NCBI GenBank assembly: GCA_022592445.1
Contig: JABYQR010000017.1
Span: 124,001 to 188,000 of the forward strand
Origin: Cytidiella melzeri
Lineage: Eukaryota > Basidiomycota > Agaricomycetes > Polyporales > Irpicaceae
Direction: 5' to 3'
DNA length: 64,000 nucleotides
Below the pieces are notes generated by a model. The model made no database searches and had not been told where the DNA came from. It saw only the letters and a program-made list of their open reading frames with translations. Positions 12,694 to 21,921 of this stretch are shown here, piece by piece (within the stretch, counting starts at the first letter, position 1; every line of letters begins with the position of its first letter). The position numbers were made by a program, and so were the translations under genes.

Positions 12694-13193
12694 TGTCAGG
12701 AACACAACCCAACTCTATGAAGAGCGAGGGAGTGACGACGAGGGGAGGAGGAACGACGAGCGAACTCGCGTGGACGATGACGACAGGAGTATAGGTGATG
12801 AGGAGGAGTGGAGACACGACGACGAGGGATCAGCTGACAATGAGCTAAAGACCAGGATATATTAGCACAGTGGTGAGACTAGTACAAGGTGAACGTCACC
12901 TAAAGACCAGGAGGTAGAATCTGAGGTCTTTAGGGAGCTACAGGGTGGGTTTATATACATCTCAGACAAGGACCCCTGGTACCGGGTCTGTACTCCTAAC
13001 ACTGCCGTGGGAACGTATGGTGTGCTATGGTGCGATGTTCTACAATGTTCCACAATGTTCCAGCACCTTCTATGATCATGTGACCAGTCTGTCACATGCA
13101 CTTGATCACATGCAGTAGCCATGTACCATCGATAAGATAAGATAAAGAAATTAAAAGGAAAAGAAAGGGAAAAAAGTGTGCATGTTCGTGACA
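12694..13193 (-). repeat. 3' LTR of the Gypsy element (family A)
   Basis: On the minus strand TGTCACGAAC to TCCTGACA. It contains the same TATATAAA box and AGATTCTACCT segment as the 5' LTR, and an AT-rich GATAAGATAAG stretch near 13133. Confidence 0.93.
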
Positions 13194-13204
13194 TTACCCC
13201 CCTC

Positions 13205-16200
13205 CTAAAGGCCTTTTCTCCGAAAGGCAGGAGTTGAGTCTTTTCCGTCTTCCCACAAGGATACGCGTCGTAGAGTTTCTGAAGGTAGCTTCTCAAAATT
13301 CTCATTAATTGGTCGGAAATTCATTGCCAAGAATAGAGATGCAGCGATTGGTCGTGGAGCTCCTGGGTGTCGTCTGTGGAAATCCTTTACGGCTTCATCG
13401 GCATGAGTGACGTTGGTGGCTGGTTCCCAGGAATTTTCTGATTCTGGGTATCCTTTCCACTTAACACGGTACTGAAACTCCTTCTTTCGCCCGAAGATCC
13501 TTGAATCAAGAATCTGTTCTACCTCGTACTCCTCTTCTTCTTCTACCACAATCGGCTCAGGTTCAGGAAATTCCCGGTTAGGGACCAAACTTGCCGTCTT
13601 GGCTGGTCGCAACCTATCCACATGGAATACCGGGTGACGCTTGTCCCGAATGGTAAGTTTAACCCGGTAATTCAAATCCCCAATCTTTTCTAAGATCTCA
13701 TAGGGACCATCTCGTTTTGGTGCTAGCTTTGCCACCGGCTGTTCCTTGGGATGTTTTTCACGTTCCACGTAAACTTTGTCACCAACTTCAAACTGCGGAG
13801 CTTTTGCAACTCCATGATCGTAGAACCGTTTCATGCGTTCTGCCGTAAGTTGTAGCGCAGCTTTAGCATCTTCTTGGGCTTCTCGTAATGCTCGAAGACG
13901 TTCGTCTGCTGCGGGAACATTGGACACTGGGTTCAAAGGCACCTGGAATTCCGGTAAATACCCATAGATCAGTTCGAAGGGAGCCTTCCCGGTGGACGAG
14001 TGTACTCGGCTATTAAGCGCAAACTCCGCAATCGGTAACCAATCTACCCAGTCATCCTGTCTGAAGGAGCAGAACACTCGGAGATACTGTTCTATCTCTT
14101 GGTTCATACGTTCTGTTTTGCCGTCTGTCTGAGGGTGATACGCGGTGGACATGGACGACTTTACTCCGAGTGCATCGTAGATAGCACGAAGGAACTTGGA
14201 CGCGAACACTGATCCACGGTCTGAGATCATCTGTCGAGGTACACCATGGAGTCGAAACACGTTTGCAATATAATCCTGCACGTGTTCGGGGGTTTTCATG
14301 CTTTCCCGTGATGGATAACAGTGCACCTGCGCGGTTGTTCGATCAACTGCAACCGTGATGGAATCGTATCCTTTACATGGCGGCAGCTTGACGATAAAGT
14401 CTGTGGTGACGCTTTCCCATGGAGCATTGGGCGGCTCTAGTGGATTGAGTGGACCGCGTGGTGGAGCGGGGTACGTCTTCGTTCTTTGACAGGTGTCACA
14501 TGTGTCTACATAATCATTGACAAAGCGTGTCATGCTGGGCCACCAGTAGTTCCGAGATAGCAGTTCCAGTGTCTTGTACCTGCCTGGATGTCCGGCGGCG
14601 GGTAAGTCATGATGTCTCCGAACCAGTTCCTTTCGGATTTCGTCATCTTTAGGGACATAAACTTTTCCCCGGAACAATAACAGCCCGTTCTCCACGTTCC
14701 ACTCTTCGAGTCCCCGACTAAGAAGACGAGGTCCGAGTTTCTTGACTTTGGCAAGTGCTTCTGCCACTTCAGTCTCTCGCAGAGAACATTCACGGATACG
14801 TTTTAACAGGTCTCTGTCTGGTTGTACGCTAGCTTGCCCCCGTTGAGAAGCAGCGGCTCGGAAGACCTCTGGTCCTAGGACTATTCGTGATAGATTATCT
14901 TCTTCGTCCTTGACCTCGTGTTGGCCTAGCCTGGACATAGAATCCGACTTTCCCATTGACTTTCCGGGCTTCGGAATGATTTCAAAGTTAAAACGTGAGA
15001 GGAACAACGACCAACGTGCTTGACGGCGTGTCAAGTTACGAGCTGTCTTCCAGTACTCGAGGTTCTTGTGGTCAGAGAAGATAGGGAATTTCTCTGGTAG
15101 CCCTTCCAAGTAATGACGCCAGTCTTCAAGGGCTCGTACAATTGCCATGAGTTCTCGGTCGTAGATCTCATAGTTTCGTTCAGTCTCAGTCATGCCTTCA
15201 GACCGATAGGCTACTGGATGCCACGTGCCGTCTTCGGCTTGTTGTTCCAATACCCCTCCCATTGCATACCCGGATGCATCCGTTTCCAAACGTGTGGGTC
15301 TATCAAAACTCCACATTGCCAACACCGGCGCTTCCACAAATTGTCGGCGGAGTTCATCAAACGCCGACTGTTCTTCAGGGCCCCATTTCCAAGGAACCTT
15401 GCCCGTGAGACGGTCTAAGGGTTTACATATTTTTCCGAAGTCTTTGATGAATCTCCGGTAGAAGTTTGCAAACCCACGGAATCGGCGAATATCGGAGACA
15501 TTCTGCGGTACAGGCCACTCAGCCACTGCCTTTACTTTGACAGGGTCCATGCGTAACTGATTGTGACCAATGATAACACCAAGATATTCTGTCTCTGAAC
15601 GCTCAAATTCGCATTTCTCCGGTTTAAGAAACAGATCATGTTGTCTGAGCCGTCTCAGAACTTCATGTACCACCTCGCGGTGTTCGGAGATCTCCTTGGA
15701 ATAGATGAGGATATCATCTAGGTAGACGGTGACCTTGCCTTCAGCAATAAGATCAGCAAAGATGTCGTTCATCATGTTCTGGAATGTGGCCGGGGAATTG
15801 GTAAGACCAAAGAACATGACCGTAGGTTCAAACAGTCCTCGGTTGGTGACAAATGCAGCTTTGTGTTCATCGCCTTCCTTGATGCGGACGTTATTGTACC
15901 CCCATCTGACGTCCAGCTTAGTGAAGAACTTAGCACCGCGCAATCTATCCATGAGTTCGGAGATCAACGGCAGTGGATACCTGTTTTTGATAGTGACTTC
16001 GTTCAACTTCCGGTAATCCTGCACTGGGCGTAACTTTCCATCCTTTTTCTTGACAAAGAAGAAGGGTGACGCCATTGGGGATTTCGACGGTCGAATGTAC
16101 CCTTTCTCTAGGTTCTCTCGGATAAACTTATCAAGCTCTTCTTGCTCAGGGTGTGACAGCGGGTAAACCTTTGCATGGAATCCTTTTGCCTCCGGAACTA

Positions 16201-17164
16201 ACTCAATTGCATGGTCGTACGACTTGTGTTCTGGCAGTCGTTGAGATTCCGTTTCAGAGAAAATGTGAGCATGTTGACGATATTGTTCAGGTACCATCTC
16301 CTCAAAGGTTTTGACTGGTTTAACCCGGTTCTCGACCTCAGCTAGTTCACTAGAGTATGTGTATCCCGCTAGAGTGAACAGGCGTTCGCCTTCCTGTATC
16401 ATAGGTGTCGGACGTGTACGTACAATGCGTCGGGGAGTTCCTTTTCCACCGAGCTGAGTAGTGGCCTGTGCCTGTAACTTCGGCAATTCGGCCCCATCCA
16501 AACTTCCTGAACCTTCCGTGGTTTCCTCGATGTCTTCTTCGGCCTCCTCCGTATCCACCGGCAAGTACGGAAGCTGTTCCACAACTTTCCGTAATCCCGG
16601 AGTTCTCTTCTTCCGTTTAGGCTCAGCTGTTCTCTTAGCTGCAGCCTCTCTCGCTTCATCAACCCGTTGCCTGGGTTTACATGCATCAGGACATCCATCC
16701 ATCCTGATGATGCCTTCGTACCAATCAATGGTGGGGTTATGATACCGCAACCAATCGATTCCTATAATTACGTCTTCGGGTCCAATATCAGTGACCGTGA
16801 AGATGGTCCTCTCCTCGTGGTCCCCTATCCTCATATTGAGAATGGCAACTTCGTCAATAGCCCCGTCTCGATTTGGGGTTCCGTCTATGTTGTACACCGG
16901 AATGGGTTGTTTCAACTTCCGGGTTCTGATACGATGCTCTCGAACAAACCGTTTATGAATGAATAGCGTCGAGGCTCCACTATCAATCATTGCTGCGACT
17001 TCTTTAGATCTCCGCACTCCTGAAACTGTGATGGGTACGTGAAAATGTTCCGATTCAGAACCAGTCTCTAATACATCAGACGCGAGTACGGAAAATCTAT
17101 TGTTACATGGTATACGCGGGGCACGTGCTTGCGCAGCTCGAATCACGGCCCGAATCAAAAACCC
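13205..17164 (-). CDS. pol: Gypsy Pol polyprotein with chromodomain
   Basis: About 1317 residues without a stop. Domains in order: aspartic protease (AAMIDSGASTLFIHKRFV, ~35-55); reverse transcriptase (VQDYRKLNEVTIKNRYPLPL, active site YLDDILIYS, ~350-500); RNase H (DASGYAMGGVLEQ, ~640); integrase with an HHCC zinc region (CDTCQRTK) and DDE core (VTTDFIVKLPPCKG, SDRGSVFASKF, AYHPQTDGKTERMNQEIEQY); C-terminal chromodomain (EVEQILDSRIFGRKKEFQYR then VKWKGYPESENSWEPATNV, ~1210-1260). Chromodomain integrases target heterochromatin marks in known chromoviruses. No ATG is needed: the frame opens only two codons before the slippery site at 17158-17164, so translation by -1 frameshift from Gag is expected. 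Confidence 0.95.
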   Translation of the reverse strand, partial: GFLIRAVIRAAQARAPRIPCNNRFSVLASDVLETGSESEHFHVPITVSGVRRSKEVAAMIDSGASTLFIHKRFVREHRIRTRKLKQPIPVYNIDGTPNRDGAIDEVAILNMRIGDHEERTIFTVTDIGPEDVIIGIDWLRYHNPTIDWYEGIIRMDGCPDACKPRQRVDEAREAAAKRTAEPKRKKRTPGLRKVVEQLPYLPVDTEEAEEDIEETTEGSGSLDGAELPKLQAQATTQLGGKGTPRRIVRTRPTPMIQEGERLFTLAGYTYSSELAEVENRVKPVKTFEEMVPEQYRQHAHIFSETESQRLPEHKSYDHAIELVPEAKGFHAKVYPLSHPEQEELDKFIRENLEKGYIRPSKSPMASPFFFVKKKDGKLRPVQDYRKLNEVTIKNRYPLPLISELMDRLRGAKFFTKLDVRWGYNNVRIKEGDEHKAAFVTNRGLFEPTVMFFGLTNSPATFQNMMNDIFADLIAEGKVTVYLDDILIYSKEISEHREVVHEVLRRLRQHDLFLKPEKCEFERSETEYLGVIIGHNQLRMDPVKVKAVAEWPVPQNVSDIRRFRGFANFYRRFIKDFGKICKPLDRLTGKVPWKWGPEEQSAFDELRRQFVEAPVLAMWSFDRPTRLETDASGYAMGGVLEQQAEDGTWHPVAYRSEGMTETERNYEIYDRELMAIVRALEDWRHYLEGLPEKFPIFSDHKNLEYWKTARNLTRRQARWSLFLSRFNFEIIPKPGKSMGKSDSMSRLGQHEVKDEEDNLSRIVLGPEVFRAAASQRGQASVQPDRDLLKRIRECSLRETEVAEALAKVKKLGPRLLSRGLEEWNVENGLLLFRGKVYVPKDDEIRKELVRRHHDLPAAGHPGRYKTLELLSRNYWWPSMTRFVNDYVDTCDTCQRTKTYPAPPRGPLNPLEPPNAPWESVTTDFIVKLPPCKGYDSITVAVDRTTAQVHCYPSRESMKTPEHVQDYIANVFRLHGVPRQMISDRGSVFASKFLRAIYDALGVKSSMSTAYHPQTDGKTERMNQEIEQYLRVFCSFRQDDWVDWLPIAEFALNSRVHSSTGKAPFELIYGYLPEFQVPLNPVSNVPAADERLRALREAQEDAKAALQLTAERMKRFYDHGVAKAPQFEVGDKVYVEREKHPKEQPVAKLAPKRDGPYEILEKIGDLNYRVKLTIRDKRHPVFHVDRLRPAKTASLVPNREFPEPEPIVVEEEEEYEVEQILDSRIFGRKKEFQYRVKWKGYPESENSWEPATNVTHADEAVKDFHRRHPGAPRPIAASLFLAMNFRPINENFEKLPSETLRRVSLWEDGKDSTPAFRRKGL

Positions 17165-18215
17165 TCCTCAAGTCTCTTCTTGAGGTCGGCGTTCTCCGCC
17201 CTTAACTTCTCCAGTTCTCCTAGCACGGCTTTGAGTGTTACTTCCGACACTCCCGACGAGTTCGACGCTTCTTCCTTCTCAGGCTTCTTTTCTTCGGCCC
17301 GAGAAGAAGATGCCTCCCATTGGTAGCAGCTACACGTGGTCCACGAGGAGGTGGACGAGGAACTGCAGGCTTGGTGCACGTGCGTGCGATGTGACTGGGA
17401 TCCGTTGTAAGTTCCTGGCAGTTATAACACCGCCGACCTTGTTGCATCTTGGAGGCGTCAACCTCCATAGGGACCGGACCGTTGGAAGCGCGAGGAACCG
17501 GAGTAAACCGGGGCTGGGACTGAGTAGGTCTCGACGTGGTCGACGAGGGAACAGACGGAATTTTCTTCTCCGTTGTTTCTCTGATGCGGGCATACGCAGC
17601 CGCCATTTTCAGAGACCTATCAATCCACCCCTGATAGTTCGTTGGCGGAGCTTCGGCAGTTGCCAATCTACCATAGATGTACTCTGGAAGGCCCTTGATG
17701 AAGCGGATCTCCTTGTCCTTGTCGCTTAATCCGGAGATGCGACCCACGTAGGATTGGAAGTCTGTGACATATGTTCCTACGTCACGCGCGTTCTTCTCCT
17801 TCTTCTCAGCTCCACAGAGCTTCTCCAACTCACGGATAGCAGTATCTTCGGGCGTTGCATCGCCGAAGTACTTCTTGAGCTCAGTTTTAAACTTGGCCCA
17901 GGTATCGAGGTTGGCCGGCAAGTTACCGTTGTGGTCAGCCATATGATCCGTGACCGGTATTGCCCATTGGGCGGCCTTTTCTGACAACCGGTAGATTGCT
18001 GTCAGGACCTTGGTTCTTTCATCGGCAATACTGGCGGTCACCCAGTAAGCCTCGCATTGTGACAAGAACCGTTCTAAGTCACGGCCATGTTCGCCCTTGT
18101 ATCTATCGGGCTTGGTGTCGTTATTGTTGACCGTGACTTGCGGTCTTGGCATTGCTTGTGTAACTGCAGCTACAATGGCTGCAATCAAGGCAGGATCGAC
18201 TGCGGGTGTTGTCAT
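17155..18215 (-). CDS. gag: Gypsy Gag polyprotein (one frame change)
   Basis: The first ATG of the predicted transcript is at 18215 (MTTPAVDPALIAAIVAAVTQ). The capsid-like domain reads KPDRYKGEHGRDLERFLSQC and WAKFKTELKKYFGDATPEDT. A zinc knuckle CYNCQELTTDPSHIARTC follows, with spacing CX2CX8HX4C, longer between Cys2 and His than the usual CX2CX4HX4C. The ATG frame stays open to 17238, but the convincing C-terminus (EASSSRAEEKKPEKEEASNS and the coiled coil LKAVLGELEKLRAENADL) lies in the -1 frame and ends at 17155. A 1-nt indel or a further -1 slip near AATGGGAGG (about 17310-17330) must join them. The gag frame is also open upstream of this ATG for 132 codons with no Met. Confidence 0.8.
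17158..17164 (-). promoter_or_regulatory. -1 ribosomal frameshift site GGGTTTT
   Basis: On the minus strand the end of Gag reads GAG GGT TTT TGA. The heptamer G GGT TTT fits the X XXY YYZ slippery rule and is followed at once by the gag stop codon. The -1 frame continues into pol, and that frame has a stop (TGA) just 6 nt upstream of the heptamer. Entry to pol from this frame is therefore possible only here. A downstream stem-loop or pseudoknot was not folded. Confidence 0.82.
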
Positions 18216-18614
18216 CGTGACAGGTGCGGAATTGATGGGGACGACGGTGGGCGCTTCAGGAGTTACCGGTGGGATTTCCGGTATGGTTTCGGGAATGATG
18301 GGATCAGGAATAATGAGGGTATCGTCTGGTGGAGCCGGTGGGTTTTCCGGTACAACTAAACTGGTATTGACCTCGACTTCTTCAGGAACTCCAACAATCA
18401 ACGGTATTTGACTGTTATCGCAAGCTACGTATCCACGGTATCGTTGTCCTTCTCTGAAATGACGGGATACTACAAACTTTTGATTTCGATTTGGACACGG
18501 CTGTTGTTCGCAGATTTCAATATATGCGTGGTCCTCTTCGTTATCGTAACAGTCCTGAAGATCGTCGGGATCAAAGACGTGGAAATGATTATCGCACTCA
18601 ATGATTGCTATTTA

Positions 18615-19436
18615 CTACAAAGGAAGTTTCTCAAAGTATCCTCCGTCCGCTACAAAAGCAACTCGACTCGTAACCTCCGTCAACCTCTTGCGCAATTGCG
18701 TGAAGTTGATCTGTCCCACTGATTGCAAGCCCCAGTTCAGTGCTTTGAGCTGGGCAGGCGTGCGCGTGGAGAGTACTTCCTCCGTGTGTTCTGTGAGGTA
18801 CAGAAGTTTGTCGTTGAGTAACAGGACTGATCTAACCTGTGAGTCGTTGCGGTCGCGAGTGAGTTCGATCAGGATCTTGAGGCGTCTGGTAGTGGCCTCG
18901 ATCTTCGGCTTGAGGATGCCGACTTGGTCCTTGATGGAAAACTTGTGGAAATCGAGCGTCACAGGTTTTTGTGCGTCTGGGCGAGGTGGCGGGGGTGCCT
19001 GGGAGACGCGGTCCTTGAGAGACGGTTTCTCAATTCGCTCCGCGAGGGTTTGCGCGCGTTCTGTGCGTGCACGTTCCTTGATGGACTCGTTGTCACGAGC
19101 AAACTTTTCGTGGTCGAAAGCAGGAAGCCTGGTGCCCAGGGGATGGTAGTGAGGGCGGCGTGAGACGTAGGATACGATGGCTTCAAGATCCTTTTCTGTG
19201 TAGAGACGAGGACGTCCTTGCTCGCGTAGTTCTCGACGAGCCTCAAAGAAGGACTCGGGTATGCGGCGACGAATGCGTACGTCCTTGGGCACTATAACCA
19301 CGAAATGAGATGTAGGATCAAAGGTTCGGGCCAATACAACGTACTGGTAAACCGGGGGGACTAAACTTTTATAAACTTTGGGGAAAGGGAATTTATGCGG
19401 TTGCGCGACGTCCAGGCGAGCGTACGGAGATTCTAC
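18615..19436 (-). CDS. Leader ORF upstream of gag, no ATG, unknown protein
   Basis: An open frame of 273 codons begins immediately inside the 5' LTR and ends in tandem stops TAG-TAA (18617-18612). It has no methionine and no cysteine codon. It looks like real protein: VVLARTFDPTSHFVVIVPKD, then Arg/Glu-rich helices (IPESFFEARRELREQGRPRL), a Pro-rich linker (APPPPRPDAQKP) and a further helical part (KIEATTRRLKILIELTRDRN). It is in the same frame as Gag. I do not recognise the family. It could be an N-terminal extension of Gag made from a non-AUG start, a separate product, or a former part of Gag cut off by two C-to-T changes (CAG CAA to TAG TAA). Expression is inference. Confidence 0.55.
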   Translation of the reverse strand, partial: VESPYARLDVAQPHKFPFPKVYKSLVPPVYQYVVLARTFDPTSHFVVIVPKDVRIRRRIPESFFEARRELREQGRPRLYTEKDLEAIVSYVSRRPHYHPLGTRLPAFDHEKFARDNESIKERARTERAQTLAERIEKPSLKDRVSQAPPPPRPDAQKPVTLDFHKFSIKDQVGILKPKIEATTRRLKILIELTRDRNDSQVRSVLLLNDKLLYLTEHTEEVLSTRTPAQLKALNWGLQSVGQINFTQLRKRLTEVTSRVAFVADGGYFEKLPL

Positions 19437-19438
19437 CT
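19428..19438 (-). other. Primer-binding site of self-primed type
   Basis: AGGTAGAATCT on the minus strand, starting 2 nt inside the 5' LTR. It is exactly complementary over 11 nt to AGATTCTACCT in the LTR (minus strand 19688-19678), about 35 nt after the first base of the TATA box, where transcription should start. Known Tf1/sushi elements prime cDNA from the first 11 nt of their own mRNA. I saw no match to a common tRNA 3' end. Confidence 0.72.
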
Positions 19439-19440
19439 AA

Positions 19441-19959
19441 TGTCAGGAACACAACCCAACTCTATGAAGAGCGAGGGAGTGACGACAAGGGGACGAGGGG
19501 GAGGAACGGAGGGGAGGAACGACGAGCGAACTCGCGTGGACGATGACGACAGGAGTATAGGTGATGAGGAGGAGTGGAGACACGACGACGAGGGATCAGC
19601 TGACAATGAGCTAAAGACCAGGATATATTAGCACAGTGGTGAGACTAGTACAAGGTGAACGTCACCTAAAGACCAGGAGGTAGAATCTGAGGTCTTTAGG
19701 GAGCTACAGGGTGGGTTTATATACATCTCAGACAAGGACCCCTGGTACCGGGTCTGTACTCCTAACACTGCCGTGGGAACGTATGGTGTGCTATGGTGCG
19801 ATGTTCTACAATGTTCCACAATGTTCCAGCACCTTCTATGATCATGTGACCAGTCTGTCACATGCACTTGATCACATGCAGTAGCCATGTACCATCGATA
19901 AGATAAGATAAAGAAATTAAAAGGAAAAGAAAGGGAAAAAAGTGTGCATGTTCGTGACA
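19441..19959 (-). repeat. 5' LTR of the Gypsy element (family A)
   Basis: 519 bp; identical by eye to the 3' LTR except for a 19-bp addition in a purine-rich stretch (about 19490-19520). Confidence 0.93.
19688..19723 (-). promoter_or_regulatory. Predicted core promoter of the Gypsy 5' LTR
   Basis: TATATAAA on the minus strand at 19723-19716; the predicted start of transcription is the A at 19688, 35 nt from the first T. The start is inferred from spacing and from the 11-nt self-primer match. Farther upstream in U3 (about 19898-19912) are GATAAG/CTTATC motifs. Confidence 0.6.
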
Positions 19960-20809: not shown

Positions 20810-21921
20810 TGTTAAGACCTGTGCCTCTTGGATTTGATCATGCTTGGGACCAATTGACAACAAGGTTGTCAGGATTGAGATTGGTGAGAGGAGGTCGTAA
20901 GTGAGTCCTTGGCTTCAGCTAAGTAAGCTGCACCTTTTGATAACTCTCAGAATTGGATTTCAACTTAGCAGGGTCAGAGGTTCAACCTTTGATGATTGCA
21001 GTTGGATTTGGATTGGAATGTTGAGTCGGACAGGGAGCAGAGGTTGGGCAATGACAAATAAGACTACTTCAGCTAGTGAAGTAGAATGAAGCAGGATATG
21101 GATGTCACAAACATGCGCACTTTTTCTCTTCTTATTTTCCTTATCTTATCCTATCCATTGCACATGGCTCCTGCATGTAATCAAGTACATGTGACAGACT
21201 GGTCACACGATCATAGAAGGTACTGGAACATTGTGGGACATTGTAGAACATTGTGCCATAGCACATCATATGTTCCCACGGCAGTGTTAGAATTACAGAC
21301 TCAGTACCAGGGCTCCTTGTCTGAGATGTATATAAACCCACCCTGTAGCTCCCTAAAGACCTCAGATTCTACCACCTGGCATTTAGGTGACATCCACCTT
21401 GCACTAGGTCCATCACTGTATTGATATAACCTAGTCTTTAGCTCATTGTCAGCTACTCCCTTGTCTCTATCCCCTTTATCATCATCATCTCCCTCACTGT
21501 CATTGTCTACGCAAGTTCACTTGTTGTTCCTCTTCCCCGTCATCACTCCCTCACTCCTTGTTGAGTTGAATTGCGTTCTTGACAATGGAGAATGCAATTC
21601 AATACTCAAATTGGAGACTTCTACTGTACAAGTTGGGTCAGCCTATATTCTACAAGTCAGAAGTCCAATAGGAGGTGTGTATAGGGAGATGATATGGGTA
21701 AGTGTTCAGGAGTAGGTATCAGAATCGGATCAGAGTTGGGACACGGTTGAAGCGTAAAGTACAAGGTAAGGCTGAATGGAGATGATCATATGACAGGATT
21801 GTGAAAGGGTCCAGGGCTTGGTCGGGAGCATGTGGTGATGGATGTGCGGGGTAGCAGCGGGAGAAGGCCGGAGTGATCAGAAGTTGAGTCCTGATCACAT
21901 GATCCAATCTGCATTGTAACA
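20810..21921 (-). repeat. LTR, family B, with a nested solo LTR
   Basis: Plus strand TGTTAAGACC to TTGTAACA; it matches 61153-61817 along its length except for the insertion at 21103-21584. The gag remnant to its left indicates a 5' LTR of a minus-strand element. About 625 bp without the insertion. No target duplication can be tested because the other end is lost. Confidence 0.72.
21103..21584 (+). repeat. Solo LTR, family A, diverged copy
   Basis: 482 bp, in the opposite orientation to the full-length Gypsy element. Begins TGTCACAAACATGC and ends TTCTTGACA. A perfect target duplication ATGGA flanks it (21098-21102, 21585-21589). TATATAAACCC is near 21328. The AGATTCTACC motif is kept with one mismatch in 11. 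Older than the copies at 12.7-19.9 kb. Confidence 0.87.

Follow-up and report, generated by a model that had tools for sequence, protein, structure and literature searches.

A predicted intron that splits a start codon in the AUG-free leader of a chromovirus from Cytidiella melzeri

The leader of the element

We analyzed a 64,000-nt stretch of the Cytidiella melzeri genome (assembly GCA_022592445.1, contig JABYQR010000017.1, positions 124,001 to 188,000; hereafter the window, whose own numbering is used), focusing on the leader of a long terminal repeat (LTR) retrotransposon on its minus strand. The element is a whole Ty3/Gypsy chromovirus (12694..19959) flanked by a 5-bp target duplication, AATAG, and all its features given below lie on the same strand. 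Its RNA is predicted to begin at 19688, where the 11-nt self-primer AGATTCTACCT (19678..19688), equal in length to that of Tf1, is the exact complement of the primer-binding site AGGTAGAATCT (19428..19438) just after the 5′ LTR (519 bp, 19441..19959). In addition, a TATA box, TATATAAA (19716..19723), was read directly 28–35 nt upstream of this position. The start site proposed by a first-pass annotation, made from the sequence alone, is thus well supported. It is followed by an exon without ATG (exon 1, 19345..19688), a predicted 53-nt intron (19292..19344), an open reading frame (ORF) that we call ORF1 (18615..19291), 132 codons in phase with Gag and free of ATG (18216..18611), and Gag itself, which from its first AUG at 18215 encodes 325 aa in this copy (17238..18215).

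From 19688 to the Gag ATG, the minus strand contained no ATG in 1474 nt, compared with 12.8 expected from a first-order Markov model and 17.7 from base composition, which bears out the observation made in the first-pass annotation. The full ATG-free run was 1511 nt (18215–19726), whereas elsewhere in the window no run exceeded 530 nt on the plus strand or 422 nt on the minus. Both open frames that had been described were also present, namely the 132 codons before Gag and a stop-to-stop frame of 273 codons (18615–19436), about 49 codons of which consist of the primer-binding site, exon 1, and the intron. The earlier interpretation was that AUGs had been purged so that scanning ribosomes reach the Gag AUG while a coding frame is kept, and that this frame is a Gag extension started without AUG, loosely like gammaretroviral glyco-Gag. 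The intron at 19344–19292 was absent from that reading.

A start codon predicted to be split by the intron

All DNA copies compared here come from one host genome (49.7 Mb). Of 153 candidates from the DNA search, 40 were scored, and of 792 from the protein search, 150; because only part of the candidates was scored, copy counts are lower bounds. After removal of loci with identical core sequence, the comparison set of the window element's family (family A) comprised 46 distinct copies, including the window locus. The predicted intron (GTACGT ... TTGAT ... TTATAG) lies in the context TTTACCA|GTACGT...(53 nt)...TATAG|TGCCCAAG, and joining its flanks would give ACC-AUG-CCC-AAG. At the DNA level, then, the leader holds a GT..AG intron whose predicted removal would unite the last base of exon 1, the A at 19345, with a UG, and the resulting AUG, with an A at −3, would be the RNA's first. 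Among the 46 copies, the donor was GTACGT in 44, GTATGT in one, and GTACAT in one, so that GT was present in all, and the acceptor TAG|TG was unchanged in every copy. Divergence was 0.7% in the donor and 0% in the acceptor with its TG, as against 4–7% in the rest of the intron and exon 1. The variants of the branch motif (TTGAT, TTGAC, and CTGAT) all conform to YTRAY.

A second family (family B), whose ORF1 is 32–36% identical to that of family A, has the same donor, GTACGT, and the same codon position split. One of its copies, L063, reads GACG-ATG-CCT, and nearly all other B copies align to it as two segments separated by about 72 nt. When L063 was aligned with L069, which keeps the intron, 1103 of 1123 bases agreed, and the two differed by one exact 72-nt GTACGT...CTAG segment, the only other gaps being of 1 and 2 nt. 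A genome-wide search with the junction pattern found seven intron-less B places (six exact, one with a single mismatch) versus 297 B donor sites; donor-site counts for both families allow up to three mismatches, and backward-pattern controls gave 0. All seven copies (L063, L070, and L079–L083) were read, and the intron is missing at the same point in each, with one substitution beside that point in L083. Because they fall into several sequence groups, several independent losses are likely, although unproven; that of L063 appears recent, since this copy is identical to L069 over 299/299 downstream bases. The simplest reading is that the intron-less copies arose by reverse transcription of spliced RNA.

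The family B copies also bear on where translation of ORF1 would begin. An in-frame GTG (19292–19290 in the window) precedes the conserved PKD in all 46 family A copies and in the intron-keeping B copies read, and ORF1 might start at this GUG, or at another near-cognate codon, on unspliced RNA, with most ribosomes leaking to Gag. Leaky scanning of this kind would suit an ORF1 free of AUG, and a near-cognate start together with AUG-free ORFs is known from rice tungro bacilliform virus (RTBV), according to the available part of the source (PMC5902531). We favored a GUG start until the exact intron loss in family B was seen. The intron-less copies open with ATG after loss of precisely a GT..AG segment, and donor and acceptor are conserved together. 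Since the B pair differs by exactly GTACGT...CTAG, the GTG is simply the AG|TG of a 3′ splice site, with the A of the start codon coming from exon 1. On this DNA evidence, which points to an AUG created by intron removal, we regard a GUG start as very unlikely.

ORF1 as a separate, conserved protein

As predicted, ORF1 comprises 225 aa, that is, the M whose A lies at 19345 plus 224 aa, followed by TAG and then TAA, and has no internal ATG. The pooled ratio of nonsynonymous to synonymous differences per site (pN/pS) relative to the window was 0.08 for ORF1 and 0.05 for Gag; the 132 codons preceding Gag gave 0.36, and the parts upstream of ORF1, when read in its frame, gave 0.57–0.59. When each variant was counted once among 43 copies (L025, L062, and L064 left out), the ratio was 0.16 for ORF1 and 0.10 for Gag, and family B ORF1 gave 0.14 (L065 versus L069). 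These values point to strong purifying selection on ORF1 and agree with the earlier view that an open frame is conserved in the leader. ORF1 was 222–226 aa long in 42 of the 46 family A copies.

The 273-codon frame, however, is not a Gag extension. The end of ORF1 could not be read by motif in 8 of the 46 family A copies; in all 38 readable ones, an in-frame stop closes it, as a tandem pair in 37. Seven homologues from metagenomes (45–58% identity) were found, and a profile search added three, including proteins annotated in Irpex lacteus (42%) and in Cytidiella melzeri (31% over 41%). The predicted start, MPKD, lines up with the starts of five of these ten (MPK in P0001, P0004, P0005, P0006, and the annotated Irpex lacteus protein P0008), and a sixth starts MPA. 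Closed by an in-frame stop and with stand-alone homologues, ORF1 is thus a separate protein, which would have an AUG of its own through splicing. Glyco-Gag of gammaretroviruses starts at CUG and is continuous with Gag, the Gag frame being open upstream of its AUG, whereas the ORF1 frame is shut off from Gag by its stop. Fusion of ORF1 to Gag by readthrough was rejected on the same ground, and is also contradicted in L021, L031, and L050, where the frame shifts by 1 nt past the stops. A second intron excising the stops was likewise discarded: no good in-phase donor was seen by eye, and L063 lacks just the one intron up to its position 2007, which is beyond its Gag ATG.

The AlphaFold2 model of ORF1 was all-helical, with a predicted local distance difference test (pLDDT) of 78 and a predicted template modeling (pTM) score of 0.48. 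A fold search returned no match in the PDB or BFVD at E ≤ 0.001, a Pfam search gave no family at E ≤ 1, and the sequence matched PDB entries only at E 0.7–0.8. No relatives of ORF1 were found in viral and prokaryotic contigs.

The 132 codons directly before Gag

If the glyco-Gag analogy applies anywhere, it would be to the 132 codons that follow ORF1. With variants counted once in the Gag frame (the same 43 copies), pN/pS was 0.36 over the first ~80 codons and 0.70 over the remaining ~50, suggesting that the former are moderately constrained and the latter near neutral, with length changes that are mostly in-frame. Positions 18605–18594, around ATC-ATT-GAG, are nearly invariant, with one change among the 43 copies, and a remnant of the stretch is kept in family B. 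This stretch might thus be a rarely translated N-terminal extension of Gag, perhaps started at the AUU at 18602, which has A at −3 and G at +4. The depletion of ATG described below, strongest here, would fit such an extension. Conversely, constraint is lower than on ORF1 or Gag, several copies are frameshifted in the stretch (one frameshift is common to L008 and L012), and in the family B copies read it is shortened or bears stops. In addition, no homologue was found at E ≤ 0.01 among 140 candidates, and no second split AUG that could serve the stretch was seen by eye. We consider the extension possible but doubtful; it would be compatible with an ORF1 made from spliced RNA.

ATG depletion along the leader

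Depletion of ATG is of uneven strength along the leader and is strongest in the 132 codons before Gag, where codon shuffling predicted 5.1 ATG versus 0 found (P = 0.0002) and the codon usage of Gag and Pol predicted 4.7 (P = 0.001). Under Gag and Pol codon usage, 3.7 ATG were expected in ORF1 (P = 0.006) and 5.0 in family B ORF1 (P = 0.001). Gag of the window element showed no such depletion (14 ATG versus 13.4 by codon shuffle).

The Gag ATG was located by motif in 39 of the 46 family A copies. From the start site to Gag, 27 of the 39 are ATG-free and the other 12 contain 1–12 ATG, although the count of 12 in L021 is too high, an upstream motif having been used as its start. Among the seven copies without the Gag motif, at least four (L017, L018, L061, and L062) have an earlier leader ATG. 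The absence of ATG is therefore conserved in many copies and not in all. No ATG occurs in the aligned leader of 24 of the 39 copies that carry 30 or more substitutions relative to the window, whereas random placement of the same kinds of substitution produced means of 1.3 to 5.6 ATG in them; these copies are not independent, since they share ancestry, and one of the leaders examined (L045) has one ATG once inserted bases, excluded from the aligned-leader count, are included. In family B, L065 is ATG-free from its predicted start to Gag (1129 nt), and L069 has 0 ATG in its first 1100 nt versus 8.2 expected.

A proposed translation switch

At the DNA level, the leader is free of AUG, ORF1 and the splice signals at the split codon are conserved, a second family shows the same arrangement, and some genomic copies are missing precisely the intron. 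We propose, with a probability of about 0.87, that the leader is a one-intron translation switch in which spliced RNA would give ORF1 and intron-retaining RNA would give Gag. The primary transcript would start at about 19688. If the intron at 19344–19292 were kept, no AUG would occur over 1.47 kb of exon 1, intron, ORF1, and pre-Gag stretch, and scanning ribosomes would reach the Gag AUG at 18215, yielding Gag together with Gag-Pol through a putative −1 frameshift. Were the intron removed, the last A of exon 1 would join UG to form ACC-AUG-CCC, and this first AUG would direct synthesis of the 225-aa accessory protein instead. Absence of AUG would then be selected because ORF1 sits between the cap and Gag on genomic RNA; an unspliced RNA without AUG before Gag and a spliced RNA with one would explain why AUG is excluded in all frames, within ORF1 and beyond. 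We infer, rather than observe, translation of both RNAs as described and scanning across the whole leader. Removal of the family A intron is likewise a prediction, intron-less copies having been found in family B only.

Several observations weigh against the switch. The branch motif diverges base by base (4.8%) as its surroundings do. A whole-genome search for an intron-less family A junction found no true case within two mismatches, set against 138 A donor sites within three; the lone match does not fit the ORF1 codons. Four of the ten homologues start elsewhere, and GTG may have been called as the start in metagenome homologues. The seven intron-less B copies may represent fewer events, as L080 and L081 are alike in 293 of 300 positions and L070 is close to L063 on the downstream side (203/209) and to L079 on the upstream side (201/209). 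The leader of L067, a B copy with the donor GTACTT, contains ATGs. When the codons of ORF1 itself were shuffled, 0.70 ATG were expected, so that its lack of ATG, taken alone, is not significant (P = 0.44); codon-shuffled controls support depletion before Gag and not within ORF1. Finally, in a per-variant test among family A copies, ATG-making changes were not scarce (10, 19, and 11 seen versus 8.0, 15.6, and 14.4 expected), although many such variants came from decayed copies, and the scoring used the window as background. The earlier proposal that AUGs were purged for scanning while a coding frame was kept hence gains from the many AUG-free copies, from family B, and from the coding nature of ORF1, whereas this last test and the own-codon shuffle of ORF1 point in the opposite direction.

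The rarity of ATG under ORF1's own codon use could also be taken to mean that the AUG-free leader merely reflects base-composition bias of an untranslated region and that the intron-less copies are unrelated deletions. This is hardly credible, as all seven copies, from several sequence groups, lost the identical GT..AG segment, ORF1 is under strong purifying selection, and ATG is at its expected frequency in Gag of the same element and depleted directly before it. More speculatively, ORF1, once made after splicing, could feed back on its own intron by promoting retention or export of unspliced RNA, giving an early/late program like that of complex retroviruses in which the split start codon would act as the switch and a long Gag started at AUU might be a third product; we regard this elaboration as unlikely.

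Other features of the element and its copies

The 3′ LTR (500 bp, 12694..13193) differs from the 5′ LTR, with which it was compared, by one mismatch and one 19-nt gap; the 19-nt stretch (about 19512–19493 in the 5′ LTR) is also wholly or nearly absent from the other copies compared. A domain search of the Pol frame (13205..17167) identified protease, reverse transcriptase (RVT_1, 2.9e-36), RNase H (RT_RNaseH, 9.2e-36), integrase (Integrase_H2C2, 3.2e-22), and chromodomain (Chromo, 1.4e-15). Reverse transcriptase, RNase H, and integrase in this order, with a C-terminal chromodomain, make the element a chromovirus. Gag was 353 aa long in 9 of the 17 copies in which it was printed; the early end at 325 aa in the window copy also occurs in L006, L012, and L013. 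The heptamer G_GGT_TTT (17158..17164) at the Gag stop is a likely frameshift site, with Pol in the −1 frame: TGA follows it directly (17164–17155 in the window), as it does in the nine copies with 353-aa Gag. In family B, a 10-nt self-primer was found in L063 and L065, and no self-primer complementarity in L067 and L070.

A 55-nt deletion between two TCCTGGTCTTTAG repeats (19678–19624 in the window; leader +10 to +65) occurs across subfamilies, in L002, L011, L013, and L023. Over 19289–17331, one group of copies (L008–L013) has 1–6 differences from the window in ORF1 and ~125 synonymous ones in Gag, and another (L015, L016, and L019) has ~77 differences in ORF1 and 4–9 in Gag. Such mosaic subfamilies likely arose by recombination between ORF1 and Gag. 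Elsewhere in the window, an inverted LTR-like segment (21121–21465) shares 87% identity with part of the element's LTR.

Significance and comparison with known systems

An intron inside a start codon would account in a simple way for an AUG-free leader of 1.5 kb, as one transcript could yield an accessory protein or, alternatively, Gag. If the proposal is right, it describes a compact natural switch in a fungus, with the fate of a retroelement RNA set by whether its intron is retained. Intron-less copies would constitute a DNA-level record of splicing that is searchable in other genomes. Moreover, a strongly conserved, uncharacterized accessory protein is added upstream of gag in self-priming chromoviruses, and the role of upstream ORFs such as ORF1 becomes directly testable. 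We found no described LTR element with an intron-split start codon in the literature searched, which left most subscription papers uncovered, so this absence is unproven.

The comparisons below draw on the accessible parts of the papers cited. The plant Ogre elements, like ours, are Ty3/Gypsy elements with an extra ORF between LTR and gag (550 codons; PMC1142308) and are known to be partially spliced, but they are not chromoviruses and their intron is located elsewhere. The present element accordingly falls outside the Ogre/Tat (OTA) group, having the extra ORF but also a chromodomain. According to the same source, a 2005 paper on Diaspora, an intron upstream of gag was then unreported in any LTR retroelement. 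The Drosophila MDG1 group carries sORF1 and sORF2 upstream of gag (PMC11952523), accessory ORFs that likewise show low nonsynonymous change; they are short, however, a predicted early polyadenylation site separates them, and the accessible text describes no split start codon. In the Ty1/Copia elements EVD and BARE1, splicing separates Gag from Gag-Pol (PMC8892269, PMC3735527), so that splicing or intron retention also sets which protein is made. There, however, the spliced RNA gives Gag, the BARE1 junction is near the end of gag, and a new start codon is not described in these portions. Tf1/Sushi elements and Tcn1 share the chromodomain and self-priming, whereas the parts available mention no intron-split upstream ORF (PMC6317226, PMC2864245).

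A parallel in leader design is found in RTBV and badnaviruses, in which accessory ORFs upstream of the main frame are free of internal AUG over ~900 nt and splicing yields another protein. In RTBV, ribosomes leak through ORFs I and II to ORF III, and P4 is made from spliced RNA (PMC5902531). Our element shares with it an AUG-free upstream ORF on the genomic RNA. The two differ in how the upstream protein would be started: in RTBV, ORF I is read from the same RNA with an AUU start, and splicing joins an upstream ORF of the leader to the distal ORF IV, whereas in the present element splicing is proposed to build the AUG itself.

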